DNA from: a virus
Virus record (IMG/VR): IMGVR_UViG_3300031227_000439
Coordinates: 1 to 23,512 of that record
Length of the DNA stretch: 23,512 bases
Reading direction: 5' to 3' (one strand)
The position numbers and the translations under genes are program-made. A model generated the notes under the pieces. The model was not told the DNA's origin. It ran no database searches and saw only the letters and a program-made list of their open reading frames with translations. Within the stretch, counting starts at the first letter, position 1. Every line of letters begins with the position of its first letter. Below, piece by piece: positions 5,249 through 19,943 of the stretch.

Positions 5249-5872
5249 TTATTTTTTATTAGTGAATAAATCACCAATTTTAGTTAATAACAAATCAATT
5301 TCTTCATCTGTCAATTCACTAATATCTTTATCTAAATTTATATCTAAATCTGTTTTAATTTTATTTGTATAAACTTCTACTGAAAACCCTTTGAATTCTC
5401 CATTTTTAACATCTTCCCATATTTCATCATTTTCTACTTTATATGAAACATACCATGTTCCTTTTGGTGTTGGTAATCCTAATTCATTTTCATTTTTACT
5501 CAACCATGATTCAATTAATTTTACACCATTACCATTTAATGAATGTTGTAATGTTATATTGTTTTGTTTATTGTTTAATAAAAAATCATAAGCCAAATTT
5601 TCAACAGTTATTTTACTAAAATATACATAGTATTCTTCATCTGTTTGAAAATTATATCTGTATATTTGTTTATCAGGAACTAAGGCTACACCTGTTATAA
5701 TTCTTTTTTCTTCATTCTCTATCTTAAAATTTAATTTTTCTTGTTTTTGAAAAGTTAAAAAATCTATATCAACAGCTGGACAATCAACTAAACTCATAGC
5801 AGTTATACCATTAGTCTTTTTATTTCCAATTATTAATTCATATACTTTTAATTTTTTGTCTTCTTTTTCCAT
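5249..5872 (-). CDS. Prohead maturation protease, XkdF type
   Basis: 207-aa protein with the XkdF-like serine protease pattern (Peptidase S78-related). It has ITGVALVPDKQIYRYN, then EYYVYFSKITVENLAYDFL. The likely catalytic His follows in ITLQHSLNG, then PKGTWYVSYKVENDEIWEDV. The likely nucleophile is Ser in GEFKGFSVEVY. In this family the enzyme cleaves scaffold and capsid precursors inside the prohead. The gene is directly followed by scaffold and capsid, the usual order, and is the first gene after a 35-bp element. The N-terminal part (MSLVDCPAVDIDF) also fits the family. The Asp/Glu-rich C-terminus may be the part trimmed on activation. Confidence 0.85.
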   Translation of the reverse strand: MEKEDKKLKVYELIIGNKKTNGITAMSLVDCPAVDIDFLTFQKQEKLNFKIENEEKRIITGVALVPDKQIYRYNFQTDEEYYVYFSKITVENLAYDFLLNNKQNNITLQHSLNGNGVKLIESWLSKNENELGLPTPKGTWYVSYKVENDEIWEDVKNGEFKGFSVEVYTNKIKTDLDINLDKDISELTDEEIDLLLTKIGDLFTNKK

Positions 5873-5973: not shown

Positions 5974-8580
5974 CTAAAATTCTACACTTGTTTTTATATC
6001 TATATCTTCTGTTTGTTGATCACTTATATCATGTGATACAACATAAACTTTTTTACTTTGTAAAACATTTGCTAGTCTTTCATAATCTATTATATCACTA
6101 GTATTTGTTGAATCACCATTTGTATTACCGGCAGAGTTTATTGAATTTAATAATGGAGTATAACGTTGTGTGGAGGCTCTATTTATAATATATTCTCCAC
6201 CCTCGGCTTCTACGTCACCCATATTGATTCCACCAGCGGCATGTAAAGGTCCATTTAATATACCACCACCAGCGGCATATTCTGTGTTTGAAATTGTTGA
6301 AGTTTGTATAACTGCATCTGCTGCAATAATTGCTGTTTGTATTCCGGCAAGTATTGCTCCAGCTGGACCCATTTCAGCATAACCAGCCCAAGTCCCAATA
6401 ATAGCTGATGCTGCATTCATTATTACATTTGCTATCTGGAATTTTTTGTTTTTATTAAATGCTTCTTCTTTTGCTTCATTTTCTGCTTTTAATTGATCTT
6501 CATTCCTATCTGTTTTAGCTTTATTAAAATTTTCATCAAGTTTATCTAATTTTGATGTATATTGTGATTCAGTTAATAATCCATCTTTATATTGTTTTTC
6601 TAATCTTTTTTTATCATTTATAAATTTTCTTTCAGCTAATTTATCTTCATCACTATATTTTTTGTTTATTTTTGTTAATTCTAAATCTCTTTGAGCATCA
6701 TTAAAGGCCATTAATTGATTTGAAATAGACATAACTTGATTGAAATTTTCATTTCTCATATCAATAGTGTCTTGTTGTTTTTGTGCCTCTGTTTCTGCAA
6801 GTTTTTTATCAGTTTCTATTTTTAATTTTAATAAATCAGCATCAGTTTTTTCTTGGTTCTTAGTTTTTATATCATTTAATTTATCTACATCATCAATATA
6901 TTTATTATCAATTTTTAATAATTCTAATTTTAATTTTTCAGCAGACCATTTTTCTATTGTAGCTTTTTCCTCTATAATTACTTTATTTTTCTTTAATAAT
7001 TCCTTATATATTTTAACTCTATCATCTACTTCTTTTTGTGTTGCAATTGTAGTGTCTTTTAATTCTCTTTTATTTTGTTCCAAATATAATTTACTCTGTA
7101 TTTCTAAAGCTGTTAATTGTTGCTTCATGAATAATTCATCATTCTTTAATATCTGTTTATTTGTGTCTTCATTTATTTTTATTCTTGTAGTAGCATATAT
7201 ATAATTTGCTTCTTGGATAAGTGCTGTGTTTGAACCAGCAGCAACTAATCTTGCATCATGTTCTTGTTTTGCTATTCTCAATAACATTTTTTGATTATTA
7301 ACTAATCTTTTTGTTTCTTCATCAATTAAATCTTGTGTTAATTCTGCTTCACCTTCTAATACACTTTTGTTTTTTGCTTCATTATATTTTACTTGTGATT
7401 TTAATGCCTTTAATGTATCAGCTAAACCTTTTAATCTTATCTTATTTTGTTCTCTTATTGTGTTTGTTTCAACTTCTGTGATCTTTGCTCTATCTTCTTC
7501 TACATTTTTCATTTGATTTATTATTTTAATACCATCATCCCTAAATTGTGCTTTTGCTTTTGTTAATTTACCAATATCTTCTATTGTTGATAATGTTCTA
7601 CCATTTTCATCTTCCCATGCTTTTATTGCTGTAGCATGTTTATCCCTCAATAATTTTATTTCTGCATCAGCTAATTTTTTTGTTGTATTAAAATCATCAT
7701 TTACTTGACCTAATTTTTCTTTTGCTAAATCTTTAGAAGCTTTTAATCTATCTACTTCACTTTTTGTTGTATCTTTAATAATAGCATCCAGCTCTTTCAT
7801 TTTTGTCATAGCTCTTGCTGTTGTCGCATCATTTACAGCTCTTTCTACAGCAGTTTCTCTTAAAGTTTTATTGTATTCTTTTTGTGCATCAGCAGCATCC
7901 CCCATAGCTTTCGCTAATTCTCCTGCTGCTTTTGCTGCTTCCTTAAAATCTCCTTGAAAAATCAATTTAATAATTTCACCAATAGCCTCTAATGAATTTA
8001 CAAACGTATCAATCATAGCTGATATACCAGCAATTTGATCACTAATCCATTCAGTTATAGGCTTAAATTTACTTAAAGCAGCAACCATTAAACCCATTAA
8101 TAATACAATAGCTGTCACAATAAGTCCTATTGGATTTGCTGCTACAACTACACCAAAAGCTCTTACAGCTCCCATAGCTCCTTGTAATAATTTTGGTAAT
8201 GACCCTATAATTCCACCAAATTTACCGAACATTCCAGCACTTTTACCCATAGTAGTACCCATTTTACCAGTACTTTTTGTTGCTCCAGCAGCACTTTTAC
8301 TCATTTTATCAGTACTTTTTGTTGTACTTTGTAATGTTTTATCAGTAGATTTATATTCTTTGTTTAATTTACCAACCTGTTTCTCATTATTTTTTATATT
8401 TGTAGCATTTTTAGTAAATGCTTCACTATTCTCTTTACCAGAATTTTTCAATTGAGTTTGTGATGCTTCTAAATCTTTTGTAGATTGATTTAATGTTGTT
8501 ATTTCTGTATTGATATCCTTTAAAGAATTCTCCATTGCTTGCGCATCAAGATTAATCTTATATGTTATTTCTTCCGCCAT
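5974..8580 (-). CDS. Tape measure protein
   Basis: 868-aa protein with the classic layout. The N-terminal helical coil is rich in Lys/Thr/Ser (about 1-120), followed by a Gly-rich segment. A hydrophobic segment lies near 140-165 (VVVAANPIGLIVTAIVLLMG). A long heptad-like, highly charged coil spans about 240-690. A hydrophobic Ala-rich helix with IIGTWAGYAEMGPAGAIL precedes the C-terminal AAGGGILNGPLHAAGGI and EGGEYIINR, an ending I associate with tape measures of Bacteroidota phages. Tape measures set tail length and help DNA entry; by the usual rule of about 0.15 nm per residue the tail would be near 130 nm. It is placed after fibres and holin rather than before the tail tip genes. Its start overlaps the holin end by 23 nt. 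Confidence 0.88.
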   Translation of the reverse strand: MAEEITYKINLDAQAMENSLKDINTEITTLNQSTKDLEASQTQLKNSGKENSEAFTKNATNIKNNEKQVGKLNKEYKSTDKTLQSTTKSTDKMSKSAAGATKSTGKMGTTMGKSAGMFGKFGGIIGSLPKLLQGAMGAVRAFGVVVAANPIGLIVTAIVLLMGLMVAALSKFKPITEWISDQIAGISAMIDTFVNSLEAIGEIIKLIFQGDFKEAAKAAGELAKAMGDAADAQKEYNKTLRETAVERAVNDATTARAMTKMKELDAIIKDTTKSEVDRLKASKDLAKEKLGQVNDDFNTTKKLADAEIKLLRDKHATAIKAWEDENGRTLSTIEDIGKLTKAKAQFRDDGIKIINQMKNVEEDRAKITEVETNTIREQNKIRLKGLADTLKALKSQVKYNEAKNKSVLEGEAELTQDLIDEETKRLVNNQKMLLRIAKQEHDARLVAAGSNTALIQEANYIYATTRIKINEDTNKQILKNDELFMKQQLTALEIQSKLYLEQNKRELKDTTIATQKEVDDRVKIYKELLKKNKVIIEEKATIEKWSAEKLKLELLKIDNKYIDDVDKLNDIKTKNQEKTDADLLKLKIETDKKLAETEAQKQQDTIDMRNENFNQVMSISNQLMAFNDAQRDLELTKINKKYSDEDKLAERKFINDKKRLEKQYKDGLLTESQYTSKLDKLDENFNKAKTDRNEDQLKAENEAKEEAFNKNKKFQIANVIMNAASAIIGTWAGYAEMGPAGAILAGIQTAIIAADAVIQTSTISNTEYAAGGGILNGPLHAAGGINMGDVEAEGGEYIINRASTQRYTPLLNSINSAGNTNGDSTNTSDIIDYERLANVLQSKKVYVVSHDISDQQTEDIDIKTSVEF

Positions 8581-9010
8581 TATTTAATTTGTTTTTTATT
8601 AAAAAATCTACTTTGTCTTTTATTATTAAAAATAATTTATTTTTTGTTATGATAAACATATTATTGAAAATTGAACTAACTTCACCTGCACAAAGCAAGC
8701 CAACTAATAATGTTGTAAAGTCCCACATACCAGAAAGAAAAAATGTTGATTGAAATAAAAATAATGATAATATAGCCATTAAATAGGCTGTTAATTTATT
8801 ACCTGTACCTCTTACTAATCTACTAAATCTTATTTTCTCTTTTGTTTTTTTCAATGCCCATAATTTTACAACCATATCAACCATTATCAGTATCAACATT
8901 GTCAATAAACTCATTTGTATCGGTGCAAACCATGCTAAACCTAAACCTAAACACTTGAATAACCAAGAGGATGTTTTCATATTTAACATGAATAATTTAA
9001 TGTATTCCAT
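8558..9010 (-). CDS. Phage holin (holin_4_1-like)
   Basis: 150-aa membrane protein with hydrophobic segments at about 15-32, 33-51, 74-95 and 97-110. The sequence DMVVKLWALKKTKEKIRFSRL followed by GNKLTAYLMAI and then GEVSSIFNNM matches the holin 4_1 pattern: an Asp in the first helix, a basic loop, and an E-SI-NN helix near the end. Holins form inner-membrane lesions that release endolysin and time lysis. No endolysin gene is visible in the window. It lies between the fibre genes and the tape measure. The start at 9010 has the A-rich leader; the end overlaps the tape measure ATG. Confidence 0.78.
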   Translation of the reverse strand: MEYIKLFMLNMKTSSWLFKCLGLGLAWFAPIQMSLLTMLILIMVDMVVKLWALKKTKEKIRFSRLVRGTGNKLTAYLMAILSLFLFQSTFFLSGMWDFTTLLVGLLCAGEVSSIFNNMFIITKNKLFLIIKDKVDFLIKNKLNNGGRNNI

Positions 9011-9053: not shown

Positions 9054-10883
9054 TTATTTCCAATCAGCAGGAATAGCAGCATAATTTGTTAAATTAGTAG
9101 CACCATCAAAACAATCAGTTCCTGTTGGCTCCGGGACTAAATCCCATAACGCAGGTGCATTTCCTACCAAACCAGTTCCTATACCATCAAAACAATTTGC
9201 GTATGATGTAGCACCTGTACAATTATCAAATAAACCTGAAGGTATGCCTGTTATTGATGTATCATCCCTAAAAGTGTTTGAAAAACTTTCTACTTTTGTA
9301 TTATAATCAAATAACCCACTTGGTATTGCTGTTAATGATGGCATCTTTGAAAAGGCATAACGAAAAGTTGTAACCTCTATATTATTATCAAACAAATTAT
9401 CTGGTATTGTTGTTAATGATGAGCAATATCTAAACATAAAACTCATATCAGTAACACCAGTATTATAATCAAATATACCACTTGTGATTCCTGTTATATC
9501 AGTGACATAAAAAACACCAGAAAAGTTTGTCACTTCTGTATTATATCTAAATATATCTACTGGTATATCAGTTATATTTGTATTAGCAAAACAAGAATCA
9601 AATCTTGTCACTTCTGTATTATATCTAAATATATCTACTGGTATATCAGTTATATTAGTATCATGAAAACAAAAAGCAAAGTTTTTCGATAATATATTAT
9701 TATCAAATAAATTATCTGGTATAGATGTAATTGGTGTTTTATTAAAAATATAAGAAAATTGTAAATTATTTATATTATTATCAAATAAACCACTTGGTAT
9801 TTCTGTTATATTTGTTTCAGCGAAGCAATAATCACATCGTGTCATATCAACAACATAATCAAATAAACCTGATGTTATACCTGTTAAATCACTTCTATTA
9901 AAAGTAGCATAGAAATCCCAGGCTTTTATTGTATATCTAAATAAATCAGTTGGTATTTCTGTTATACTTGTGCTATCAAAAGTCCTTAAAAATTTTAATG
10001 CTTCTGTATTATACTTAAATAAATCATCTGGTATAGATGCTAATGAAGAACATAAATAAAATGTATATTGAAATGTAGTCACTAATGGTGTATTATCAAA
10101 TAGACCAGAAGGTATAGATGTTATAGGTGTGTCTTCAAAAACACTTGCAAAATTTACAGTAAGAACACAATTATCAAATAACCCAGTAGGTATAGATGTT
10201 ATATCTGTATTATCAAAACAACTTTGAAAATTTCCAGCATTAACAGAATTATCAAATAACCCACTTGGTATAGATGTTATTGGTGTATTCTGAAAAGTTT
10301 TTACAAAACTACCATTAACAGTACTATAATCAAATAAACCACTTGGTATAGATGTTATATCTGTTGTAGAAAATGCTTCTGTAAATGATCCTGTTACTCT
10401 ATTATAATCAAATATACCACTTGGTATAGATGTTATAGATGTGTTCTTACAAAATACATTAAAACTTAAAACCTCGGACAATCTACCATTTTCATCTGGT
10501 AATGTTGTTAAATTAACACAATTATTAAAGTTTATTTGCTTCAATCTCATATTATTCCCAAAGCTTTTTATTTCAGTTATAAAAGGAGCAATAGCTCCAT
10601 TATTTACGTAAAATGTCTCACATTTACCTTCAATTGATATATCATATGTTCCGGCAGAAGCAAATATATGAGTATTATTTGCATCATTATAAGTAATTAT
10701 ACTATCACTTATAGTTCCATCACCCCAATTAACTATATAATTATATTCATAACCAGAAGATGTTGGGAGACTTATAGATTGTGCTGCTCCTACCACTACC
10801 GTAAATATAAAAGGTTCTATTGTATAATTTAACAAATTATTATTATCTGTTAATAAACTATTATTTATTTTTAATAATCCCAT
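9054..10883 (-). CDS. PKD plus leucine-rich-repeat adhesin/tail fibre
   Basis: 609-aa protein. Residues about 22-95 form a PKD-like domain, with NWGDGT at 52-57 and HIFASAGTYDISIEG. From about 112 to 560 there are 16 repeats of about 25 residues, typically ITSIPSGLFDYNT-VTSF---F--T, resembling BspA-like leucine-rich repeats of surface proteins. The C-terminus (PALWDLVPEPTGTDCFDG and NYAAIPADW) looks like a cap. Known: PKD and such LRR domains bind proteins or glycans on surfaces. Inference: a receptor-binding or surface-adhesion component of the virion, because it lies between a fibre and the holin. There is no signal peptide, which fits a virion part rather than a secreted host protein. It has recent internal duplication. 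Confidence 0.75.
   Translation of the reverse strand: MGLLKINNSLLTDNNNLLNYTIEPFIFTVVVGAAQSISLPTSSGYEYNYIVNWGDGTISDSIITYNDANNTHIFASAGTYDISIEGKCETFYVNNGAIAPFITEIKSFGNNMRLKQINFNNCVNLTTLPDENGRLSEVLSFNVFCKNTSITSIPSGIFDYNRVTGSFTEAFSTTDITSIPSGLFDYSTVNGSFVKTFQNTPITSIPSGLFDNSVNAGNFQSCFDNTDITSIPTGLFDNCVLTVNFASVFEDTPITSIPSGLFDNTPLVTTFQYTFYLCSSLASIPDDLFKYNTEALKFLRTFDSTSITEIPTDLFRYTIKAWDFYATFNRSDLTGITSGLFDYVVDMTRCDYCFAETNITEIPSGLFDNNINNLQFSYIFNKTPITSIPDNLFDNNILSKNFAFCFHDTNITDIPVDIFRYNTEVTRFDSCFANTNITDIPVDIFRYNTEVTNFSGVFYVTDITGITSGIFDYNTGVTDMSFMFRYCSSLTTIPDNLFDNNIEVTTFRYAFSKMPSLTAIPSGLFDYNTKVESFSNTFRDDTSITGIPSGLFDNCTGATSYANCFDGIGTGLVGNAPALWDLVPEPTGTDCFDGATNLTNYAAIPADWK
9160..10550. repeat. Sixteen coding LRR repeats of about 75-81 bp
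   Basis: DNA of the LRR domain repeats with a period of about 25-27 codons; the block GGTATAGATGTTAT recurs many times. Repeats 11 and 12 are almost identical: 9527-9578 and 9605-9656 match over 52 nt at a 78-nt offset. Confidence 0.85.
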
Positions 10884-10890
10884 ATTTTAT

Positions 10891-13800
10891 TTATTCTACT
10901 AAAGCTATTTTATAAAGTGTTCCACCTATCTCAACCTCTACAAAATCAGTTGTGACTAATGTTACTCCACTTGTTATTACATCACCTAATTTCCATGTGG
11001 CTGAACCACTTGAAGGATCCGATGTTGTTAATGTTGAAACATTTGTATTTCCATTTATGTTAGAATCTGCATGTGAGACATATAATTGTCCGCCATAAAC
11101 AATAGCTGTCTGTATCTTACCATCACTTGACATTGCTATTCCTCTCCAAGATCTAGAACTATCTTTTGCTGTCCATGTATATCCATAATCATTTGAAATA
11201 TAAATATAACCAGTTGCAACAGCTGTCTGTATCTTACCATCACTTGACATTGCAATATCTCTCCAATCTTCTGATGTTGCTTTTGCTGTCCATGTATATC
11301 CATAATCATTTGAAATATAAATATAACCATTATCAACAGCTGTCTGTATCTTACCATCACTTGACATTGCAACACTATCCCAAGTTCTTGAACTATCTTT
11401 TGCTGTCCATGTATATCCATAATCATTTGAAATATAAATATAACCATGATATTCAACAGCTGTCTGTATTTTACCATCACTAGACATTGCAATGCCACTC
11501 CATTCTTCTGATGTTGCTTTTTGTGTCCATGTATATCCATAATCATTTGATACAAAAATCTCACCATGATATTCAACAGCTGTCTGTATCTTACCATCAC
11601 TTGACATTGCTATTCCTCTCCAATATCTAGAACTATCTTTTGCTGTCCATGTATATCCATAATCATTTGAAATATAAATATAACCAATTGCAACAGCTGT
11701 CTGTATCTTACCATCACTTGACATTGCTATTCCTCTCCAAGATCTAGAACTATCTTTTGCTGTCCATGTATATCCATAATCATTTGAAATATAAATATAA
11801 CCAGTTGCAACAGCTGTCTGTATCTTACCATCACTTGACATTGCAACACTATCCCAAGTTCTTGAACTATCTTTTGCTGTCCATGTATCACCTATATTAC
11901 TCAAATATAATTGATTTTCAGTTATTCCAACTCTACCAAAATAAGCACCACCATGTAATTGTGATAAAGCCATTTGGTCTGTACTCAAATAACTTTGGTT
12001 TTCTGTACCACCTGTTATATTACCACCAATAGCTAAATTATCTGTTGATGTTACAGGTGAAATTATTGATCCACTTCTATCCCAATATGAATTTGCATCT
12101 ACATAATTTGTAATAGCAGAAGCTGTAGCTAATTCATTAGCTGTTGATCCTGAATCTAAAACATCTACTATATCTGTTATTAAATCACCATCATTAAATG
12201 ATATACTATCAGCAGAAAAACCACCATCTACTACTGTATCACCACTTAAAATAATTGTATCACCACTTGTAGATAAACAAGAACAGGTTTTATTAATCCA
12301 TGTTCCACCACTATAATATAATGTTTGTCCTTCTGTAGGACTTGTAATTGTTGTGTCTGTTAAATTTACTAATGTTGCTCCATGTATTGTTGTTGCTGAA
12401 ATTGTATCTACTATAAGATGTTGAACATTTAATTCTGAAATTAAAGTGTCTTCAACATCAGTTAATCCAGTTATTGTTTCTCCATCAAAAATTATATTAC
12501 CATGTAATGTTGTGTCACCAGTTATAGTTAAATATCCTTCAACATCCAAACCTACATACATTTCAATTCCGTCTTTAGTAATTAACATTCGCTTTGATCC
12601 AGCACTATCATTTATACCAGCATCACTTGTCCAAAATTGTAATTTAGTAGCAGAATTATAAGAACCCAAACCACCACCAAAATAAGTATTATTTTCAGCT
12701 GTAGTATTATATGAGAAAAATGCCATTACTGGATCATTTGTTGTGTAATAATTAGAACATACTATTCCACCTTGTGAAACAGCACTACCTGTTATTTCTC
12801 CTACTTTTATAAAGCTATCAGTACCATTTATTAAATTTATATTATCATATACGTTTAATTCTCCACCAATACTTAAACCACTAACATTATATGTCAATCC
12901 AGTAGAACCAATCAAATTATTTCCATCACTATAAGCGACTTGTGTATCTGTTATTGTTGTTCCAGTAGTTCCACCTACATAAGCCTTTATAGCATCTGCT
13001 GTTGCTAATTCATTTATTGTTGCTGATACACTCAAATCTGTTGTTATTCCACTTATTGTTTGACTATCAAAAATTATATTACCATTAAATGTAGTGTCAC
13101 CTGATATAGTTAATGAAGATGTTGGTGAATTTGTATTTATACCTACACCATTTGAAGCTCTAATTAAAAATTGTGATTGATCTGTACTATTAAAATCTGT
13201 ACCAGTTCTATCAGACCAAGTAAAAGTTCCTGTATGATTTGAACCAGCTCTATTACCAATTGCAAAAGAATCAGTTCCTGTAGCAGTATTTGTAGTACCA
13301 AATGAAAAAGAATTATTACCTTGGGATATACAATTATACCCACCAGCAAAAGATCTATAACCAACATTCAATATATCCCATTGATCTGCTGTTACAAGTC
13401 CTATTCTAAAAGCAGCTTTGTTTGGGATCCACATAAATCTTGTTCCTGAACCAGTTATTGGTAAAGAACCATTCGTTCCTTCTGAATATATTGTACCATT
13501 AACTTTTAATTCATTAGTGTTAAAAGTTAAATCAGCAGATCCAACTAAATTAGTCCCATCACTATAAGCGACTTGTGTATCTGTTATTGTTGTTGTTAAA
13601 TCATCTAAACTTGTATCACCTGAAAGGAAATTAGCATCTGTCTCTGTTTCTGTATAGTATCTTTCATCATGATTGTGTGTAGGATCCCACTCAACATCAG
13701 TAGTTCCTTCCATTGTAAATGTTACAGGATTTGTATTTCCAGAACCACTTACAGCAGTCAAATAATAATTTCCAGTTAATTCACCTTCAATATCATATAC

Positions 13801-13923
13801 AGCTTTTGCTGTTGCTAATTCATAATGTGTTGAAGCAGAACTAACTAATTCAGTTATTCCAGTTATATTTGTAACACCACTAGCATCAAATGTGTTATTA
13901 ATTTCAAATTGTTTTACTCTCAT
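10891..13923 (-). CDS. Large tail fibre with a seven-repeat Asp-box beta-propeller
   Basis: 1010-aa protein. The N-terminal two thirds consist of phage-fibre modules, with ELATA-AI-Y, TITDTQVAYSDG twice, GDTTFNGNIIFD and GDTTLHGNIIFD. From about 671 to 953 there are seven repeats of 39-40 residues, each with a core like SNDYGYTWT, then W-GIAMSSDGKIQTA. SNDYGYTW is an Asp-box (S-x-D-x-G-x-T-W). Six copies are canonical; the first blade (SNIGDTW) lacks the Asp, and a last strand LYVSHADSN probably closes the ring. Seven repeats predict a seven-bladed propeller. The C-terminal WKLGDVITSG and VEVEIGGTLYKIALVE looks like a fibre tip or trimerisation end. Sialidases use the same fold, but no catalytic residues are evident, so glycan binding is more likely than cleavage. 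Role: host recognition at the tail tip. Confidence 0.8.
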   Translation of the reverse strand: MRVKQFEINNTFDASGVTNITGITELVSSASTHYELATAKAVYDIEGELTGNYYLTAVSGSGNTNPVTFTMEGTTDVEWDPTHNHDERYYTETETDANFLSGDTSLDDLTTTITDTQVAYSDGTNLVGSADLTFNTNELKVNGTIYSEGTNGSLPITGSGTRFMWIPNKAAFRIGLVTADQWDILNVGYRSFAGGYNCISQGNNSFSFGTTNTATGTDSFAIGNRAGSNHTGTFTWSDRTGTDFNSTDQSQFLIRASNGVGINTNSPTSSLTISGDTTFNGNIIFDSQTISGITTDLSVSATINELATADAIKAYVGGTTGTTITDTQVAYSDGNNLIGSTGLTYNVSGLSIGGELNVYDNINLINGTDSFIKVGEITGSAVSQGGIVCSNYYTTNDPVMAFFSYNTTAENNTYFGGGLGSYNSATKLQFWTSDAGINDSAGSKRMLITKDGIEMYVGLDVEGYLTITGDTTLHGNIIFDGETITGLTDVEDTLISELNVQHLIVDTISATTIHGATLVNLTDTTITSPTEGQTLYYSGGTWINKTCSCLSTSGDTIILSGDTVVDGGFSADSISFNDGDLITDIVDVLDSGSTANELATASAITNYVDANSYWDRSGSIISPVTSTDNLAIGGNITGGTENQSYLSTDQMALSQLHGGAYFGRVGITENQLYLSNIGDTWTAKDSSRTWDSVAMSSDGKIQTAVATGYIYISNDYGYTWTAKDSSRSWRGIAMSSDGKIQTAVAIGYIYISNDYGYTWTAKDSSRYWRGIAMSSDGKIQTAVEYHGEIFVSNDYGYTWTQKATSEEWSGIAMSSDGKIQTAVEYHGYIYISNDYGYTWTAKDSSRTWDSVAMSSDGKIQTAVDNGYIYISNDYGYTWTAKATSEDWRDIAMSSDGKIQTAVATGYIYISNDYGYTWTAKDSSRSWRGIAMSSDGKIQTAIVYGGQLYVSHADSNINGNTNVSTLTTSDPSSGSATWKLGDVITSGVTLVTTDFVEVEIGGTLYKIALVE
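11066..11911. repeat. Seven near-identical 117-120 bp propeller repeats
   Basis: The block CTGTCTGTAT begins at 11106, 11223, 11340, 11460, 11580, 11697 and 11814, giving steps of 117, 117, 120, 120, 117 and 117. Most differences cluster in short blocks: SSR versus TSE after the Asp-box, and ATG, EYHG, DNG or AIG before the next strand. Confidence 0.9.
12923..13594. repeat. Duplicated fibre module, two copies 633 nt apart
   Basis: An identical 39-nt tract lies at 12923-12961 and 13556-13594 (encodes TITDTQVAYSDG). Related copies of the GDTT--GNIIFD block also occur near 12480 and 13065, indicating module duplication inside the fibre gene. Confidence 0.8.
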
Positions 13924-13938
13924 ATTTTTATATTCTTT

Positions 13939-14970
13939 TTATATTTGTGCTTCAAATGTCCAAACACCACTTGTTCTTTTTTGTGTTTCTAAATAACCTA
14001 ATGTGTTTATAAATGTTCTATAACTACCATCTACACTTTCTGTTCCGTAATAATGGTAGGTTGCTATATTTTGAAATATATTCTTAATGTTTGTGTCTCC
14101 ATTTATAGTAACATCATCACTAAATATAGTAGCACCACTAAAAGTTTTTGTATCAAGAATTGTCACGTCACCAGAAATAGGAACATAACTTCCACCTACA
14201 GCTGTTATAACTTTTTCATCAATATATGTTTTTACAGCTAATGCTGAACCTATGTTTGTGTTAGAAGCAAATGTTAAACCTGTGTCTGTAATTATTTCAT
14301 CAAAATAATTTCCTTCTGTGTCATATAAATTTGTAAATGTTGTGGTTCCTGATAAATTAACATCATCACTAAAACTTTTATCACCTTCTATTGTTTGGTT
14401 ATTAATTAAATCTACAAATAAACTTGAACCTTCTACACTTTCTAAACTTGTCTCGGCTCCATTTATTCTAATTAATTCCATGCCATTACCAGAAAATGTT
14501 GTGCCTCCTGTTAATTGCTCAAAACTATTTATATAATCTTTTTCTACATATGAACCACTCTCACCAACTAATATCATATCATTAGTTATACCTGAAGGTG
14601 TGTCTGTTAAATTTGTTATTGTTGTTGCTATTGTATTTGTTATAAATTCAACAGCATTACCAGCAGCATTTACAGCTAGTATTGTTGAAGCTGAATATGA
14701 ACCTGGTGTGTCAGATAATTCTAAAAAACTTGAAGTACCTGATGAAGAAGCAATTTCTACAATTTCATCACCAAATCTACCCCATATTCTATCATCTGAT
14801 GTGTTTAAGAATAATTCTCCATCATATAAATCTGTTACTAACCATCCACCTTGTGTATGATCTAAAACATCTACCGCTGTTGAGCCACTTGGGATTGTAG
14901 GAACCTCAGAAGATATACTTGATCTTTTTAAAGTCATTCTTCTGTTAAAAATTTCTAAATTATTTGACAT
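13939..14970 (-). CDS. Tail fibre/appendage protein
   Basis: 343-aa protein with modular fibre sequence. An N-terminal segment (about 1-75) contains STAVDVLDHTQGGWLVTDLYDGELFLNTSDDRIW, which would attach to the virion. It is followed by FLELSDTPGSYSASTILAVNAAG, a motif common in phage fibres, and repeated Ser/Thr/Gly beta segments with TNLTDTPSGI, SGTTTFTNLYD and FSGATIFSDDVTINGDTNI. The C-terminus YHYYGTESVDGSYRTFINTLG and GVWTFEAQI looks like a trimeric tip. No enzymatic motif is seen. It is first of the fibre series and has a 35-bp element just upstream. It shares style, not clear identity, with the next fibre gene and may be a base to which longer fibres attach. Confidence 0.75.
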   Translation of the reverse strand: MSNNLEIFNRRMTLKRSSISSEVPTIPSGSTAVDVLDHTQGGWLVTDLYDGELFLNTSDDRIWGRFGDEIVEIASSSGTSSFLELSDTPGSYSASTILAVNAAGNAVEFITNTIATTITNLTDTPSGITNDMILVGESGSYVEKDYINSFEQLTGGTTFSGNGMELIRINGAETSLESVEGSSLFVDLINNQTIEGDKSFSDDVNLSGTTTFTNLYDTEGNYFDEIITDTGLTFASNTNIGSALAVKTYIDEKVITAVGGSYVPISGDVTILDTKTFSGATIFSDDVTINGDTNIKNIFQNIATYHYYGTESVDGSYRTFINTLGYLETQKRTSGVWTFEAQI

Positions 14971-14985
14971 TATTAATTGTTAATT

Positions 14986-15020
14986 TTTTATATAAAAGTA
15001 TATTATGAAAATTTTGTTTT
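14986..15020 (-). promoter_or_regulatory. 35-bp late-promoter-like element, copy C
   Basis: AAAACAAAA, 12 bp, ACTTTTATATAAAA on the - strand, 15 nt before the ATG at 14970. Its upstream end touches the stop codon of the 98-aa gene. It would drive fibres, holin and tape measure. Confidence 0.75.
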
Positions 15021-15317
15021 TTAACATGATTTTGGTTCATAACAAATAGTATCATGTATATTAATCCAGAATTTATAACCTAAATTAATCATTCTTTGGT
15101 GATGTCCTTCATGAACATTTATCATAGCTTTTAATTTATTATGTCCACAACAACAACCTTCTGTCCTTATTTCATTATCCCATAACAATTCTATTTCATC
15201 CACAATACATTTATCAATACATATTTCTTTATTATTCCACCAACTTAATCTTATTACTTGATTATCATAAGATCCTATTTCTACATTTTTACAATTACAC
15301 ATATTATTGGTTTCCAT
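15021..15317 (-). CDS. Small Cys-rich phage protein (CNCKN type)
   Basis: 98-aa protein with likely metal-binding Cys and His: Cys7, Cys9, Cys33, Cys37, Cys55-57 and His59 in GCCCGHNK. MCNCKNVEIGSYDNQV and LLWDNEIRTEGCCCGHN followed by MINLGY is a recurring pattern in small phage proteins of unknown function. No enzymatic role is evident; a zinc-stabilised fold is inferred. It overlaps the tail hub gene by 14 nt. An alternative ATG at 15302 (Met6) would avoid the overlap and starts closer to the CNCKN motif. It lies between tail hub and fibres, but family members are not known to be structural. Confidence 0.65.
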   Translation of the reverse strand: METNNMCNCKNVEIGSYDNQVIRLSWWNNKEICIDKCIVDEIELLWDNEIRTEGCCCGHNKLKAMINVHEGHHQRMINLGYKFWINIHDTICYEPKSC

Positions 15318-18300
15318 CTTGTTTTTTCATACTATCAATCCAATTATCTTCATATATTTCATCTTCTCCTGAATCAATAATTCCAGCATCAGTAAAAGGT
15401 TCTTGTGTAACATTTAATCCACCAGTAGTCATGATATTTGTTTGTTGTCCAGTTTCAACTTTTACATTATTAATATATGATGTTCCTATTTCATCTGTTA
15501 TAATTAAATTAGAACAATTTGTTAATGTTACTCCTTCACAACTTGTCATTGTTATATTTGTTGAATTATTTACTATATTATTCTCACCTGAAATTGTAGA
15601 ATCACTTGTACTCATTATTGAATTATTATCATTTATTACTATAAGATTTGAAGAATTACTTATTGTGTTTGCATCACCATTTACAGAACTATCAATCAAA
15701 TCTATAATTGTATTTTCAACACCAATTATATCAGTGTTTATATTTATACTATCTGAACCACTTGGTATTTCTTCTTTTGGTATATATTCAGTAGGTTCAG
15801 TATTTCCTATATTTCTTTTATTTAATTTATATAATTCTATTTGTGTAGGTTTCAATGGTGACCAATTTTTAATTTTATTTATAAAATATAGTTCATTTTG
15901 TATTCTCACTAATGTGTTCATTTTTAATTTCACAAAATCTAAAGCATCAAGCCAAAATTCAGCAATTAACATATAAGAATTTTTATCACTAAAGGAGCCT
16001 ATATAATCCTTCCAGTAATTTGTGAATAAATTATCATAATCATAATTTATATCTGTATAAACTCTTTTTGGTGTCTTATAGGTTAAATGAAATTTATTAT
16101 CAACATCATTTCTATTTGAAATAATAATAGGTTTAATTGTTTCAGTATTTAATTCTATATCTCTAAGTGTCATGTTTGATGCTGTTGTAGCTTTATTCAA
16201 AAACATAAAATTAAAAGGTATATTATATTCATTTTTTAATATAGGATTATTTTCATCATCAAATCTTTTTATTTCAGCCATATTAAAACTAACACTATCA
16301 GTAGAACCACTATCAATTCTCATTTGTTTATCTTTAGAGAAAATGAATATAGATGAATTCATATAATCTGATTTTATTTTAGATTGTTCATTATCTGATA
16401 TATATTTTAGATTACCAACCTTTTCATTAAAATCATTAAAGTATTTATCATTCTCAACTAAATTATATTCCTTAAATAAAAAATTATTTATTCTTGGAGT
16501 TATTAAAGATAAAATCTTCTTATCAATTTTTTTATCTAATATAATTTTTTCAGTTAAATCATAACTATCATCAAGGTAAAACTCATTATGTATATCAAAA
16601 CTAATAATCTTTTCATATTTATCTACACTAATATACAAATTAAACATATTTGTTAATGTTTTTATATATTTCATTTGTGTTAATTCATCATCACCTAAAT
16701 ATAACATAGGCTCCTGTAAAATATCAGGATATACAAATTCTATATTTTCTACTTCACTTTCTAATTTTAAATTAAAGTCCCACCTGAATTGTATTTCTTG
16801 TCCAGTTGAACCTCCAATTGTATCAATTTTTTTAATCTTAAATTTTAGAAATGGTGCTGCATCATTACTAAATGTTTCATCTTTATACAAATAAACAGCA
16901 GGTAATAAAAAATCTATTGTTGTTGTGTTGTCTCCTATTACTAAATAATCTTCTTCATCTTCATCATTATCCCATTTTAATTTATTATTCCATGTTTTTA
17001 CCTTTTGTCCAGAAGCATGTAAACCATCTGTTGTAGGATATACAATATATAAATCTAATTCATATTCATCATAAAAATCAGAACCACTTACCAATGCTCC
17101 ACCAAAAACATTTATTTCTCCTGTAATTCTTATGTTTGTTCTTTGGTCTTTTCTTGGTGAAAGTGTCCACCAGCCCAATGGTTGAGTATTTAAAATAGAA
17201 ATTGAATTATATAGCAACGTAGGGCGTCTACCATAATTAAAATTTTGATATTCATCAGCATGTGCAACGTTATATGATTCTCCTAAAACAGCAAAATCAC
17301 CATCTATATTTCTTCCTACTAAACTATTAACAGTTGCTAAACAATGTGTAAATTCTGGAGTTATTATTTCTTGTTCATCATATTCACTAACCTCATTAGT
17401 TATAATTGGTGAATATAATGGTACTACTAAACTCTTAAAAATATCATCATCAAATAAACTTCCATCTATAGTATAACCTTCATTAGTAAACATATTTGTT
17501 AATATAGTTTTAGCTGGAATAACTGGTATCATATCTTTACCTAATAAACCTTTTGTGTTGGCTATCTCTTGACTATTATATGAAAAAGTATTCATATAAT
17601 CTCCTGTTTCCATTTGCTTACCTCTATTCATTATACCAAATGAATAATCTTGGTTTGCTTCAACTAATTCTTTACCATTATCATAAGCACTCACTAAACT
17701 TTCTATATTTGATATACTTGTATCTATACTAAAATCAGTTTCTAAATTCATTAATAATTTATCTGTTAAAATTGTGAATATATCTATAGCATCACTTTTA
17801 TATAAAACATTAAAGTATTTTGAACCTGTGTCTGTTGTTATTATATTTTTTAATTCTAAATTTCCTAACCCTATATCAATTCCATTTACAACCAAAAAAC
17901 ATTTTTGTAATGTTAAAACATTGAAAAATGGATCTGAATCATTATGGTTCAAATAACCAAAAAACTTTTGGTTAATTTCTGTTGCTGGTAATAAAAATGT
18001 TTGTGAATATAAACTTTTTATTTTATCTGGCTCCATTATATCTTTTAAAGACTTTGATAAAACCATATCAGCTTTTTCATCAACGCCTAATTGAAGCCAG
18101 TAATATGGTTCTACTGTTGTTGTATTAAAAATTGAAGTGGTGTGTGTGTTTATAAGTCCAGTTATTGTTGTGATGTTTATATCATAAATATAAACATCAT
18201 CATCACCATCAATAGCAAAAAATAAATCTTTATTGTTTCCTGCCTTTGTAATTTTTTTAGTATATGTTCCATCTGTCTGAAATTCTGTAGGTCCAAAATA

Positions 18301-18612
18301 ATTCTCAAAAAGTGGAGCATATGTATAATCTGAACCATCAACATCAACAGCTCTAATATATAATCCACCTGTAGAAGTATTATTAACATAATGAATCTTG
18401 AATGTTATTTCATATTCTCCTGTTTCCTCAAATATATCATTTAGATATATTTTTCCTTTTTTATATAATCTTATTGCATTATATTCTAAATATGTTGCCT
18501 CTTTATCTGTTTTATCATTATTATAAAAATATAAAAACTCTGTATTTGTTTTTGTAGAAACAATAGAAGATTTATATATATTTTTTTGTGTCTTAGCATA
18601 TAATTCAATCAT
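15304..18612 (-). CDS. Tail hub/baseplate protein with beta-helix-like C-terminus
   Basis: 1102-aa protein. An N-terminal carbohydrate-binding-like beta domain (about 1-150) has TGEYEITFKIHYVNN and GLYIRAVDVDG. It is followed by the block characteristic of tail hubs in Bacteroidota phages: LSKSLKDIMEPDKIKSLYSQ, TFLLPATEINQKFF, then LTLQKCFLVVNGIDIGLGN and YFNVLYKSDAIDIFTIL. A C-terminal part (about 965-1060) is rich in short Asn/Ser/Thr strands such as ISNSSNLIVIN, GVTLTNCSNLIIT and TSYINN, suggesting a beta-helix. It probably forms the hub at the tail tip and carries fibres. Its ATG overlaps the preceding stop as TAATG, coupling the two. The family assignment rests on pattern; no lytic domain is seen. 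Confidence 0.75.
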   Translation of the reverse strand: MIELYAKTQKNIYKSSIVSTKTNTEFLYFYNNDKTDKEATYLEYNAIRLYKKGKIYLNDIFEETGEYEITFKIHYVNNTSTGGLYIRAVDVDGSDYTYAPLFENYFGPTEFQTDGTYTKKITKAGNNKDLFFAIDGDDDVYIYDINITTITGLINTHTTSIFNTTTVEPYYWLQLGVDEKADMVLSKSLKDIMEPDKIKSLYSQTFLLPATEINQKFFGYLNHNDSDPFFNVLTLQKCFLVVNGIDIGLGNLELKNIITTDTGSKYFNVLYKSDAIDIFTILTDKLLMNLETDFSIDTSISNIESLVSAYDNGKELVEANQDYSFGIMNRGKQMETGDYMNTFSYNSQEIANTKGLLGKDMIPVIPAKTILTNMFTNEGYTIDGSLFDDDIFKSLVVPLYSPIITNEVSEYDEQEIITPEFTHCLATVNSLVGRNIDGDFAVLGESYNVAHADEYQNFNYGRRPTLLYNSISILNTQPLGWWTLSPRKDQRTNIRITGEINVFGGALVSGSDFYDEYELDLYIVYPTTDGLHASGQKVKTWNNKLKWDNDEDEEDYLVIGDNTTTIDFLLPAVYLYKDETFSNDAAPFLKFKIKKIDTIGGSTGQEIQFRWDFNLKLESEVENIEFVYPDILQEPMLYLGDDELTQMKYIKTLTNMFNLYISVDKYEKIISFDIHNEFYLDDSYDLTEKIILDKKIDKKILSLITPRINNFLFKEYNLVENDKYFNDFNEKVGNLKYISDNEQSKIKSDYMNSSIFIFSKDKQMRIDSGSTDSVSFNMAEIKRFDDENNPILKNEYNIPFNFMFLNKATTASNMTLRDIELNTETIKPIIISNRNDVDNKFHLTYKTPKRVYTDINYDYDNLFTNYWKDYIGSFSDKNSYMLIAEFWLDALDFVKLKMNTLVRIQNELYFINKIKNWSPLKPTQIELYKLNKRNIGNTEPTEYIPKEEIPSGSDSININTDIIGVENTIIDLIDSSVNGDANTISNSSNLIVINDNNSIMSTSDSTISGENNIVNNSTNITMTSCEGVTLTNCSNLIITDEIGTSYINNVKVETGQQTNIMTTGGLNVTQEPFTDAGIIDSGEDEIYEDNWIDSMKKQDGNQ

Positions 18613-19943
18613 TAATATCTTACATTATTTTGTGAAATTAAAAATTTTAATTTATATTTTTTTAATCCTTTTCTTTTCTTATTATAAATTATGGCTTTCT
18701 TCTCTAAACTTATAACACTGACCCACTCACTATTTATATTCATATAAACTTCTGTTGAATGAAAAAGATCCTCTAGACCATCTATTTGTGATTGATTCAA
18801 AAAATCTGTGTGTAATTCATACCATGTCTCAACCTCATTCCTGTAAACATTCATTCCTTTATTATAATTATTCTTTACAACTTTTTCTGTGTCAAAATTC
18901 AAGGTGTTTATATTTTGATTATAAATATCTTTATTCATAGATATATTCTTTTCATTTGCTTTTTGAAATAAATAATAATCTACTCCGCCTTTTGTATTTT
19001 CCCAGGCAACATTTATACTTGTAAAATTACAATCTTCTACAATTGTAAAAGTGTGCTTCTTTGTCACCTGTCCACCTGTTCCATTTGGCCATGTATAACC
19101 ATGTATTTCATATTTCTCAATATAATTTGTATAATCTACTCCTAAGTAAGTAAATGTTAATTTATTTGTTCCATCAGTGTATAAATATAATAATGTATTT
19201 GTACTTATATTTGCTCCTACTTCTGGATAAATATATCTTAAATAAAACTTTGTGTTTTTCCAATTATTTAATCCTACTGGTAATTCTATCATATAATCAT
19301 CTCCACTTGTGCTTGCTGTATATTGATCAGAAGCAGTAGCATTCCAATATGGATTAGCCTCACCCAAAACAATAATTTTATCTATTCCTGTACCTGCTAC
19401 AAATGTTATAGTCATATATGTTTGGTATATTTTTGCGACATTTGTTGCTGTTGGTTCGACATTCAAATTACCATTATATGTTCTAAAAGTGAAATCATCT
19501 GTTGCTCTTATATTATGATTAACTGGCATGCTAACTAAAAAATCTGTTGTATCAGAATAACCTGGTATGTAATTATCAGGAGAAAAATCTGGATCTGAAT
19601 ATCTTAATCCTGTTTTAACTAACCAAGAGGTTTCTGTTCCACCACTATATTCCTCAACACTCTCATTATAAACAACAACATTGTCTTCTATATTACTTAT
19701 AGAGGTTATACTAGGATTGAAATTGAATGAAGTTTTTGATTTTAGTATCTCTGTAGGATCATTAAAGCTTAATTTGTCCTCTAAAGGCACTGTTGTACCA
19801 TTAAAAAACACACCATCCATGTCTGTTAGACTATATTTATAGTAAAAATTTGTAGATGTTGTTAAATTTGTCTTATAAGTATAGTATGTTGGTAAGAAAA
19901 CTGAATGTAAATTGTCTGGTAATTGTGTTTTAGTTATAGACAT
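18612..19943 (-). CDS. Distal tail-like protein
   Basis: 443-aa protein, beta-rich, no membrane segment. The middle has TFTIVEDCNFTSINVAWENTKGG followed by VDYYLFQKANEK, a layout seen in distal tail/baseplate proteins of Bacteroidota phages (a W-N--GG--Y--F strand pair). The C-terminal domain NKGMNVYRNEVETWYELHTDF, then LNQSQIDGLEDLFHSTEVYM, then a Trp-containing strand, also occurs in this family. It should sit between the tail tube and the hub encoded next. It is the first gene after a 35-bp element. Start at ATG 19943 agrees with the element's spacing. Confidence 0.65.
   Translation of the reverse strand: MSITKTQLPDNLHSVFLPTYYTYKTNLTTSTNFYYKYSLTDMDGVFFNGTTVPLEDKLSFNDPTEILKSKTSFNFNPSITSISNIEDNVVVYNESVEEYSGGTETSWLVKTGLRYSDPDFSPDNYIPGYSDTTDFLVSMPVNHNIRATDDFTFRTYNGNLNVEPTATNVAKIYQTYMTITFVAGTGIDKIIVLGEANPYWNATASDQYTASTSGDDYMIELPVGLNNWKNTKFYLRYIYPEVGANISTNTLLYLYTDGTNKLTFTYLGVDYTNYIEKYEIHGYTWPNGTGGQVTKKHTFTIVEDCNFTSINVAWENTKGGVDYYLFQKANEKNISMNKDIYNQNINTLNFDTEKVVKNNYNKGMNVYRNEVETWYELHTDFLNQSQIDGLEDLFHSTEVYMNINSEWVSVISLEKKAIIYNKKRKGLKKYKLKFLISQNNVRY

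Follow-up and report, generated by a model that had tools for sequence, protein, structure and literature searches.

A recently homogenised Asp-box propeller with mosaic loops in a predicted phage tail-fibre gene

The fibre gene and its surroundings

The DNA analysed here, which we call the window, is the 23.5-kb phage record IMGVR_UViG_3300031227_000439 (G000; 23,512 nucleotides). Family and profile matches in the window to portal, large terminase and tape-measure proteins assign it to the tailed phages, and the portal has a distant likeness (26% identity) to the portals of Nonlabens phages, from which a Bacteroidota host is a guess. A sister record (G001, locus L078) matches the window at 100% and ends before the fibre gene described below. 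Past the window's end it runs on until it arrives at the genes with which the window begins (the GIY-YIG ORF, the ORF at 933-1460 and the portal); this points to a genome of probably about 33 kb that is circularly permuted or circular. The sister record also encodes a CoiA-like competence nuclease homologue (L078:9654-10352; Pfam CoiA_N, 37 bits) beside a DUF3987 gene, possibly with a link to recombination. The genes around the fibre gene are as follows.

5974-8580: tape measure, in the tail cassette
8558-9010: holin (Pfam Phage_holin_4_1)
9054-10883, minus strand: repeat protein of 609 aa, in the gene adjoining the fibre gene
10891-13923, minus strand: tail-fibre protein of 1010 aa (open reading frame)
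13939-14970: fibre-like ORF in the tail cassette, next to the propeller gene
15304-18612 and 18612-19943: tail-module-like ORFs, neighbours in the tail cassette

The fibre gene lies between baseplate- or fibre-like ORFs on one side and the holin and tape measure on the other, and the relative phage L002 has the same gene order, with a diverged propeller gene in the matching tail cassette. The N-terminal two thirds of the protein, for which a search found no relatives, are shaft-like (with a weak Pfam match to YadA_head at residues 201-226), and a propeller (residues 643-963) lies close to the C terminus. The Pfam BNR/Asp-box match reaches 30.8 bits, above the curated cut-off of 27. Gene position and fibre-like architecture suggest a virion protein at the fibre tip that would bind the host surface.

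The adjoining gene (9054-10883, minus strand) encodes leucine-rich-like repeats of about 26 residues (TSIPSGLFDYN), with weak matches to DUF285 and, at the N terminus, to PKD, and a match to PHROG 9915. Its 78-bp DNA repeats match at up to 92%, so that two surface proteins with amplified repeats are encoded side by side. Upstream of the fibre genes, a stretch of about 56 bases (14966-15021) recurs in the sister record at 80-88% identity (G001:C1:3426-3479, 5455-5485 and 11353-11410) and might be a promoter or leader element of the phage.

Repeat array, predicted fold and related propellers

The repeat array that had been noticed in the fibre gene is confirmed at the position given. TRF reports a period of 117, 6.7 copies and a score of 1131 at 11100-11888, and the array reads in frame on the minus strand as six full Asp-box units of 39 or 40 codons (11149-11856) with a half-unit at each end. 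In the order of the protein, its parts are:

11911-11997, minus strand: adapter segment LSTDQMALSQLHGGAYFGRVGITENQ, directly before the propeller; it also precedes the propellers of some relatives
11857-11916, minus strand: leading half-unit NQLYLSN-IGDTWTAKDSSRT, expected to complete blade 7 as its last strand (model strand 23-36)
11740-11856, minus strand: unit 1, 117 bp (WDSV... ATG ... DSSRS), chimera-like, its left part resembling unit 5 and its right part unit 6
11623-11739, minus strand: unit 2, 117 bp (WRGI... AIG ... DSSRY)
11503-11622, minus strand: unit 3, 120 bp (WRGI... EYHG, EIFV ... ATSEE)
11383-11502, minus strand: unit 4, 120 bp (WSGI... EYHG ... DSSRT)
11266-11382, minus strand: unit 5, 117 bp (WDSV... 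DNG ... ATSED)
11149-11265, minus strand: unit 6, 117 bp (WRDI... ATG ... DSSRS)
11050-11148, minus strand: three strands of blade 7 at the trailing end, WRGIAMSSDGKIQTAIVYGGQLYVSHADSNING, lacking an Asp-box; similar ends occur in L008 and L023/L026
11104-11255, minus strand: copy A of a 152-bp exact repeat (units 6/7)
11695-11846, minus strand: copy B of the same repeat (units 1/2)

Each unit follows the pattern W..(V/I)AMSSDGKIQTAV-(V2)-GYIYISNDYGYTWTAK-(V1), and all six full units carry the Asp-box turn SNDYGYTW, which conforms to S-x-D-x-G-x-T-W. Here V1 denotes the D-to-A connection (DSSRx or ATSEx) and V2 the B-to-C hairpin (ATG, AIG, EYHG or DNG); these are the two loop blocks, SSR/TSE and ATG/AIG/EYHG/DNG, as originally described. 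The original prediction had counted seven repeats of 117-120 bp, which is right for the number of blades but not for that of full repeats, there being six with two partial ends. Pairwise DNA identity of the units is 80-97%, and the array contains exact repeats of 152 bp (the longest), 81 bp and 62 bp. Amino-acid changes in the framework are found in unit 3 only and synonymous framework changes in unit 4 only; with unit 3 left out, all amino-acid differences sit within the two loop blocks.

An AlphaFold2 model built on an alignment of 44 rows of related propellers (A6) gave a confident propeller (pLDDT 93.1, pTM 0.89). Its top Foldseek match is Ycf48, an Asp-box propeller, and VIA-align matches to the solved structures of the highly repetitive propeller 2ymu (Z 31.4) and the designed seven-bladed v13WRAP-T (Z 30.8) span the full length of the model (residues 14-294 or 20-294). 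The array is thus confidently predicted to fold as a closed seven-bladed Asp-box ring of four-stranded blades, and the closure proposed as a check on the propeller was obtained. The alignment proved necessary, because AlphaFold2 run on the single sequence left the ring open (pLDDT 56, pTM 0.54) and gave a sheet whose fold matches carried no meaning; the A6 model took the place of this one. Sliding windows of L011, tried as added alignment rows, collapsed into one register and were dropped.

By strand count, blade 7 takes its last strand from the leading half-unit and its first three from the trailing part. Such completion of a blade from both chain ends is the usual velcro closure of propellers. 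In the model, the D, V1 and A segments fall on strand 23-36, and B, V2 and C fall on strand 43-54. Given this antiparallel meander topology, the V1 and V2 turns should lie on one face, which the variable residues would share, and the invariant A-B turn (SSDG) and Asp-box on the opposite one.

Relatives were drawn from two viral loci (by direct search), 13 genome contigs and then dozens of viral contigs; related propellers are present at about 50 loci of IMG/VR. In a tblastn search with the propeller as query, 50,697 phage records gave no match at 1e-5, and the only ones at E<=5 were weak, from Vibrio and Achromobacter. Blades were counted per locus with a blade HMM: single propellers gave 7 or 8 detected domains, tandem ones 13-14 and 20, and diverged ones six, most likely because end blades there fall below threshold. 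Counts in most related loci are 7, 14 or 20-21, centred on seven or its multiples. Blade number is thus about constant at seven across relatives, in keeping with the demands of ring closure, which argues against blade-number change as a mechanism.

The adapter consensus LS(T/V)DQMxLSQLxGGAYFG(R/H)VG(I/L)TENQ is shared by the window and the five-propeller fibre L023/L026, where the full form stands before four of the five propellers; it is weaker in L027, L022 and L008. Among the viral contigs no full form was found beyond L023/L026, and with this as the sole other confirmed phage, the idea that the adapter serves generally as an attachment point for other domains is not supported.

Consecutive seven-blade Asp-box propellers occur within single fibre genes, five in L023/L026 and about seven to eight in L024, on viral contigs of 66 and 105 kb. 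A 2539-aa protein encoded on a contig of Candidatus Vogelbacteria (L013:3274-10890) is built like a fibre and belongs to a CPR bacterium or its prophage; besides a Peptidase_S74 intramolecular chaperone and LVIVD repeats, it has two Asp-box propellers of seven blades each. The sister fibres L040 (aa 1040-1125) and L044 differ by a single 42-aa unit of a ASITEANDTVSSTS-like repeat, a change in repeat number that falls outside the propellers.

Homogenised blades and mosaic loops

Internal DNA identity is higher in the window propeller than in any other parsed (median 84%; next 76%), and divergence at four-fold synonymous sites between its blades is 0.080, against 0.28-0.72 in 11 other propellers. 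Mean identity among its full blades is 79.9%, compared with 54.4% to relatives' blades at the same position and 54.2% at other positions. The equality of the latter two values means that blade position carries no memory, which is a sign of recent re-amplification or homogenisation, as had been proposed from the likeness of the repeats. With the leading half-unit counted, median internal identity is 75% at the amino-acid level, above the value of >60% that defines highly repetitive propellers (PMC9218822); across the roughly 50 viral propellers internal identity runs from about 25% to 75%.

The arrangement of the loops is a mosaic. A pairwise compatibility test on 16 informative sites, only two of them from V2, found incompatible pairs in 15/16 comparisons of V1a with V2, 8/12 of V1b with V2 and 8/48 of V1a with V1b, against 1/28 within V1a. 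Reading V1 with the V2 that follows it, all four combinations of classes exist in the array: DSSR-ATG (unit 1), DSSR-EYHG (unit 3), ATSE-EYHG (unit 4) and ATSE-ATG (unit 6). The shuffled loop blocks of the original prediction are borne out by both results. The high V1a-V2 incompatibility, set against that within V1a, shows that the blades did recombine. In unit 1, V1 is that of unit 5 and V2 that of unit 6, and the 81-bp exact repeat (distance 474 bp) and the 152-bp exact repeat (591 bp) meet there; the unit looks like a chimera of these two and bears the footprint of recombination.

The suggestion that shuffling is ongoing in the population fared less well: the few near-identical sister pairs (L042/L043, L049/L050 and L053/L054) have no loop change in their propellers. 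The shuffling process is accordingly one that we infer from a single array, as none of the sister genomes found has its loops in another order.

Nei-Gojobori proportions over the six full units were pS 0.317 and pN 0.335 for loop codons, and pS 0.060 and pN 0.031 for framework codons. Loop pN about equals pS, with few synonymous sites there, so that positive selection is not directly indicated. The two V1 classes carry different charges (DSSR vs ATSEE/ATSED), and loops are the variable parts in all aligned relatives. A fixed blade number together with identical loops across relatives had been named as evidence that would count against the shuffling; the number is indeed about fixed, but loop sequences differ between relatives.

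Three other explanations have to be weighed. One is the ordinary birth of a repetitive propeller, in which one blade was recently amplified, its turns tolerate change and the loop pattern plays no part in host range. Propellers of this highly repetitive kind are common, Asp-box and viral ones among them (PMC9218822), amplification of one blade occurs in all propeller lineages, and both the variability of loops in all aligned relatives and the similar pN and pS of the loops fit relaxed turns. This account is possible, although we think it rather unlikely, because relaxed point mutation cannot raise loop divergence to about fivefold that of synonymous sites in the framework (0.335 vs 0.060), and multi-base loop alleles recur across units in a way that is incompatible with a tree. 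With relaxed constraint alone insufficient, the loops would be either older than the framework or under diversification. Old loops on a young framework is the reading we favour, since loop pN is close to pS and both V1 classes (DSxRxW and ATSxxW) are present in L023/L026.

The unit order and the mosaic might also be partly false, through mis-joining of near-identical units in a short-read metagenome, the exact repeats of 152, 81 and 62 bp being near read length. We consider this very improbable: loop-to-loop linkage needs only 36-45 bp of identical sequence, far under the usual read length, the sole repeat above 81 bp is one two-copy pair with one consistent path between unique flanks, the reading frame is intact, and the unit count exactly closes a seven-blade fold. 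There is similarly little to commend a glycan-cleaving enzyme of sialidase or xyloglucanase type in place of a binder, even though Asp-box propellers are common in such enzymes and the A6 profile matches xyloglucanases and, more weakly, sialidases. The best profile matches are to sortilin and the best folds are Ycf48 and repetitive or designed propellers, all non-catalytic; near-identical blades leave no unique catalytic cluster, and blade arginines are confined to the repeated V1 loops. Pfam gives the BNR repeat alone and no sialidase-type family, in agreement with the earlier remark that catalytic residues are not visible, and Pfam families and arginine positions in the sequence do not reveal the arginine triad with Asp/Glu/Tyr of a GH33-type sialidase.

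Proposed mechanism and comparison with known systems

We consider it reasonably probable that the array is the receptor-binding head of a tail fibre, with recently homogenised blade cores and loops reassorted on one face. A closed seven-bladed Asp-box propeller would hang from the fibre shaft via the short conserved adapter, and blade copies would recombine by unequal crossing-over or gene conversion, for which the identical 36-bp and 45-bp framework blocks would provide homology. Blade cores would in this way have been homogenised recently, while the V1 and V2 turns stayed diverse and were reassorted, altering one surface of a fixed scaffold. That surface would bind a ligand, and diversity of its loops would be of benefit. 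A further step, which we offer only tentatively, is that this is a retroelement-free host-recognition device, in which two loop cassettes per blade, flanked by framework homology arms, are exchanged among seven positions at constant blade number. If true, the binding face would be re-mixed combinatorially and ordinary recombination inside a repeat propeller would let phages vary their receptor-binding surface with no need of a retroelement, as a parallel to the HNWD receptors of fungi. The roughly 50 viral propellers would make the cycle of propeller amplification and divergence directly testable in fast-evolving genomes.

Targets of diversity-generating retroelements (DGRs) such as tentaclins (PMC10743442) likewise carry their variable residues at the tip of a phage fibre, on a scaffold that stays fixed. 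In the window, by contrast, the loop differences affect all bases, are not adenine-specific and include 3-bp indels, and no reverse transcriptase was recognised among the scanned ORFs of the window and of the remainder of G001, in a genome that is possibly incomplete; a DGR was therefore rejected as an unlikely source. Ycf48/HCF136 (PDB 5ojr, 2xbg) is also a seven-bladed Asp-box propeller, Ycf48 being non-catalytic and peptide-binding, but it is a photosystem assembly factor with diverged blades and 15% identity to the window propeller. Phage-encoded Asp-box propellers are found in the 'outer capsid protein' of Vibrio phages VP2 and phiVC8, whose sequence match to the window is weak (E 0.3-1), and in the multi-propeller IMG/VR fibres L023/L026, which share the adapter, and L024; in all of these the blades are far more diverged.

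The WD40 sensors HET-D/HET-E (HNWD) of Podospora anserina have concerted repeats with hypervariable surface sites (PMC12222747). Like them, the window propeller has near-identical repeats in concerted evolution, with recombination between copies and a small number of hypervariable sites on one surface, in the window a putative interaction surface. They differ in being WD40 fungal immune receptors rather than Asp-box propellers, in a repeat number that varies (about fixed at seven in the window's relatives) and in reported diversifying selection (PMC12222747), where window loops have pN close to pS.

Pereira and Lupas (2022; PMC9218822) have described highly repetitive propellers from every major lineage, including those with Asp-boxes and those of viruses. 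In the literature covered, which takes in a minority of subscription journals, no account of such loop mosaics in the Asp-box propellers of phages came to light. The window propeller resembles those described in its median blade identity above 60%, its predicted closure and in blades closer to each other than to other propellers. It differs in sitting in a phage tail-fibre gene and in loops that form a recombination mosaic on frameworks nearly without synonymous differences; highly repetitive Asp-box propellers, viral ones included, being already known, the new part is the loop mosaic in a phage fibre.
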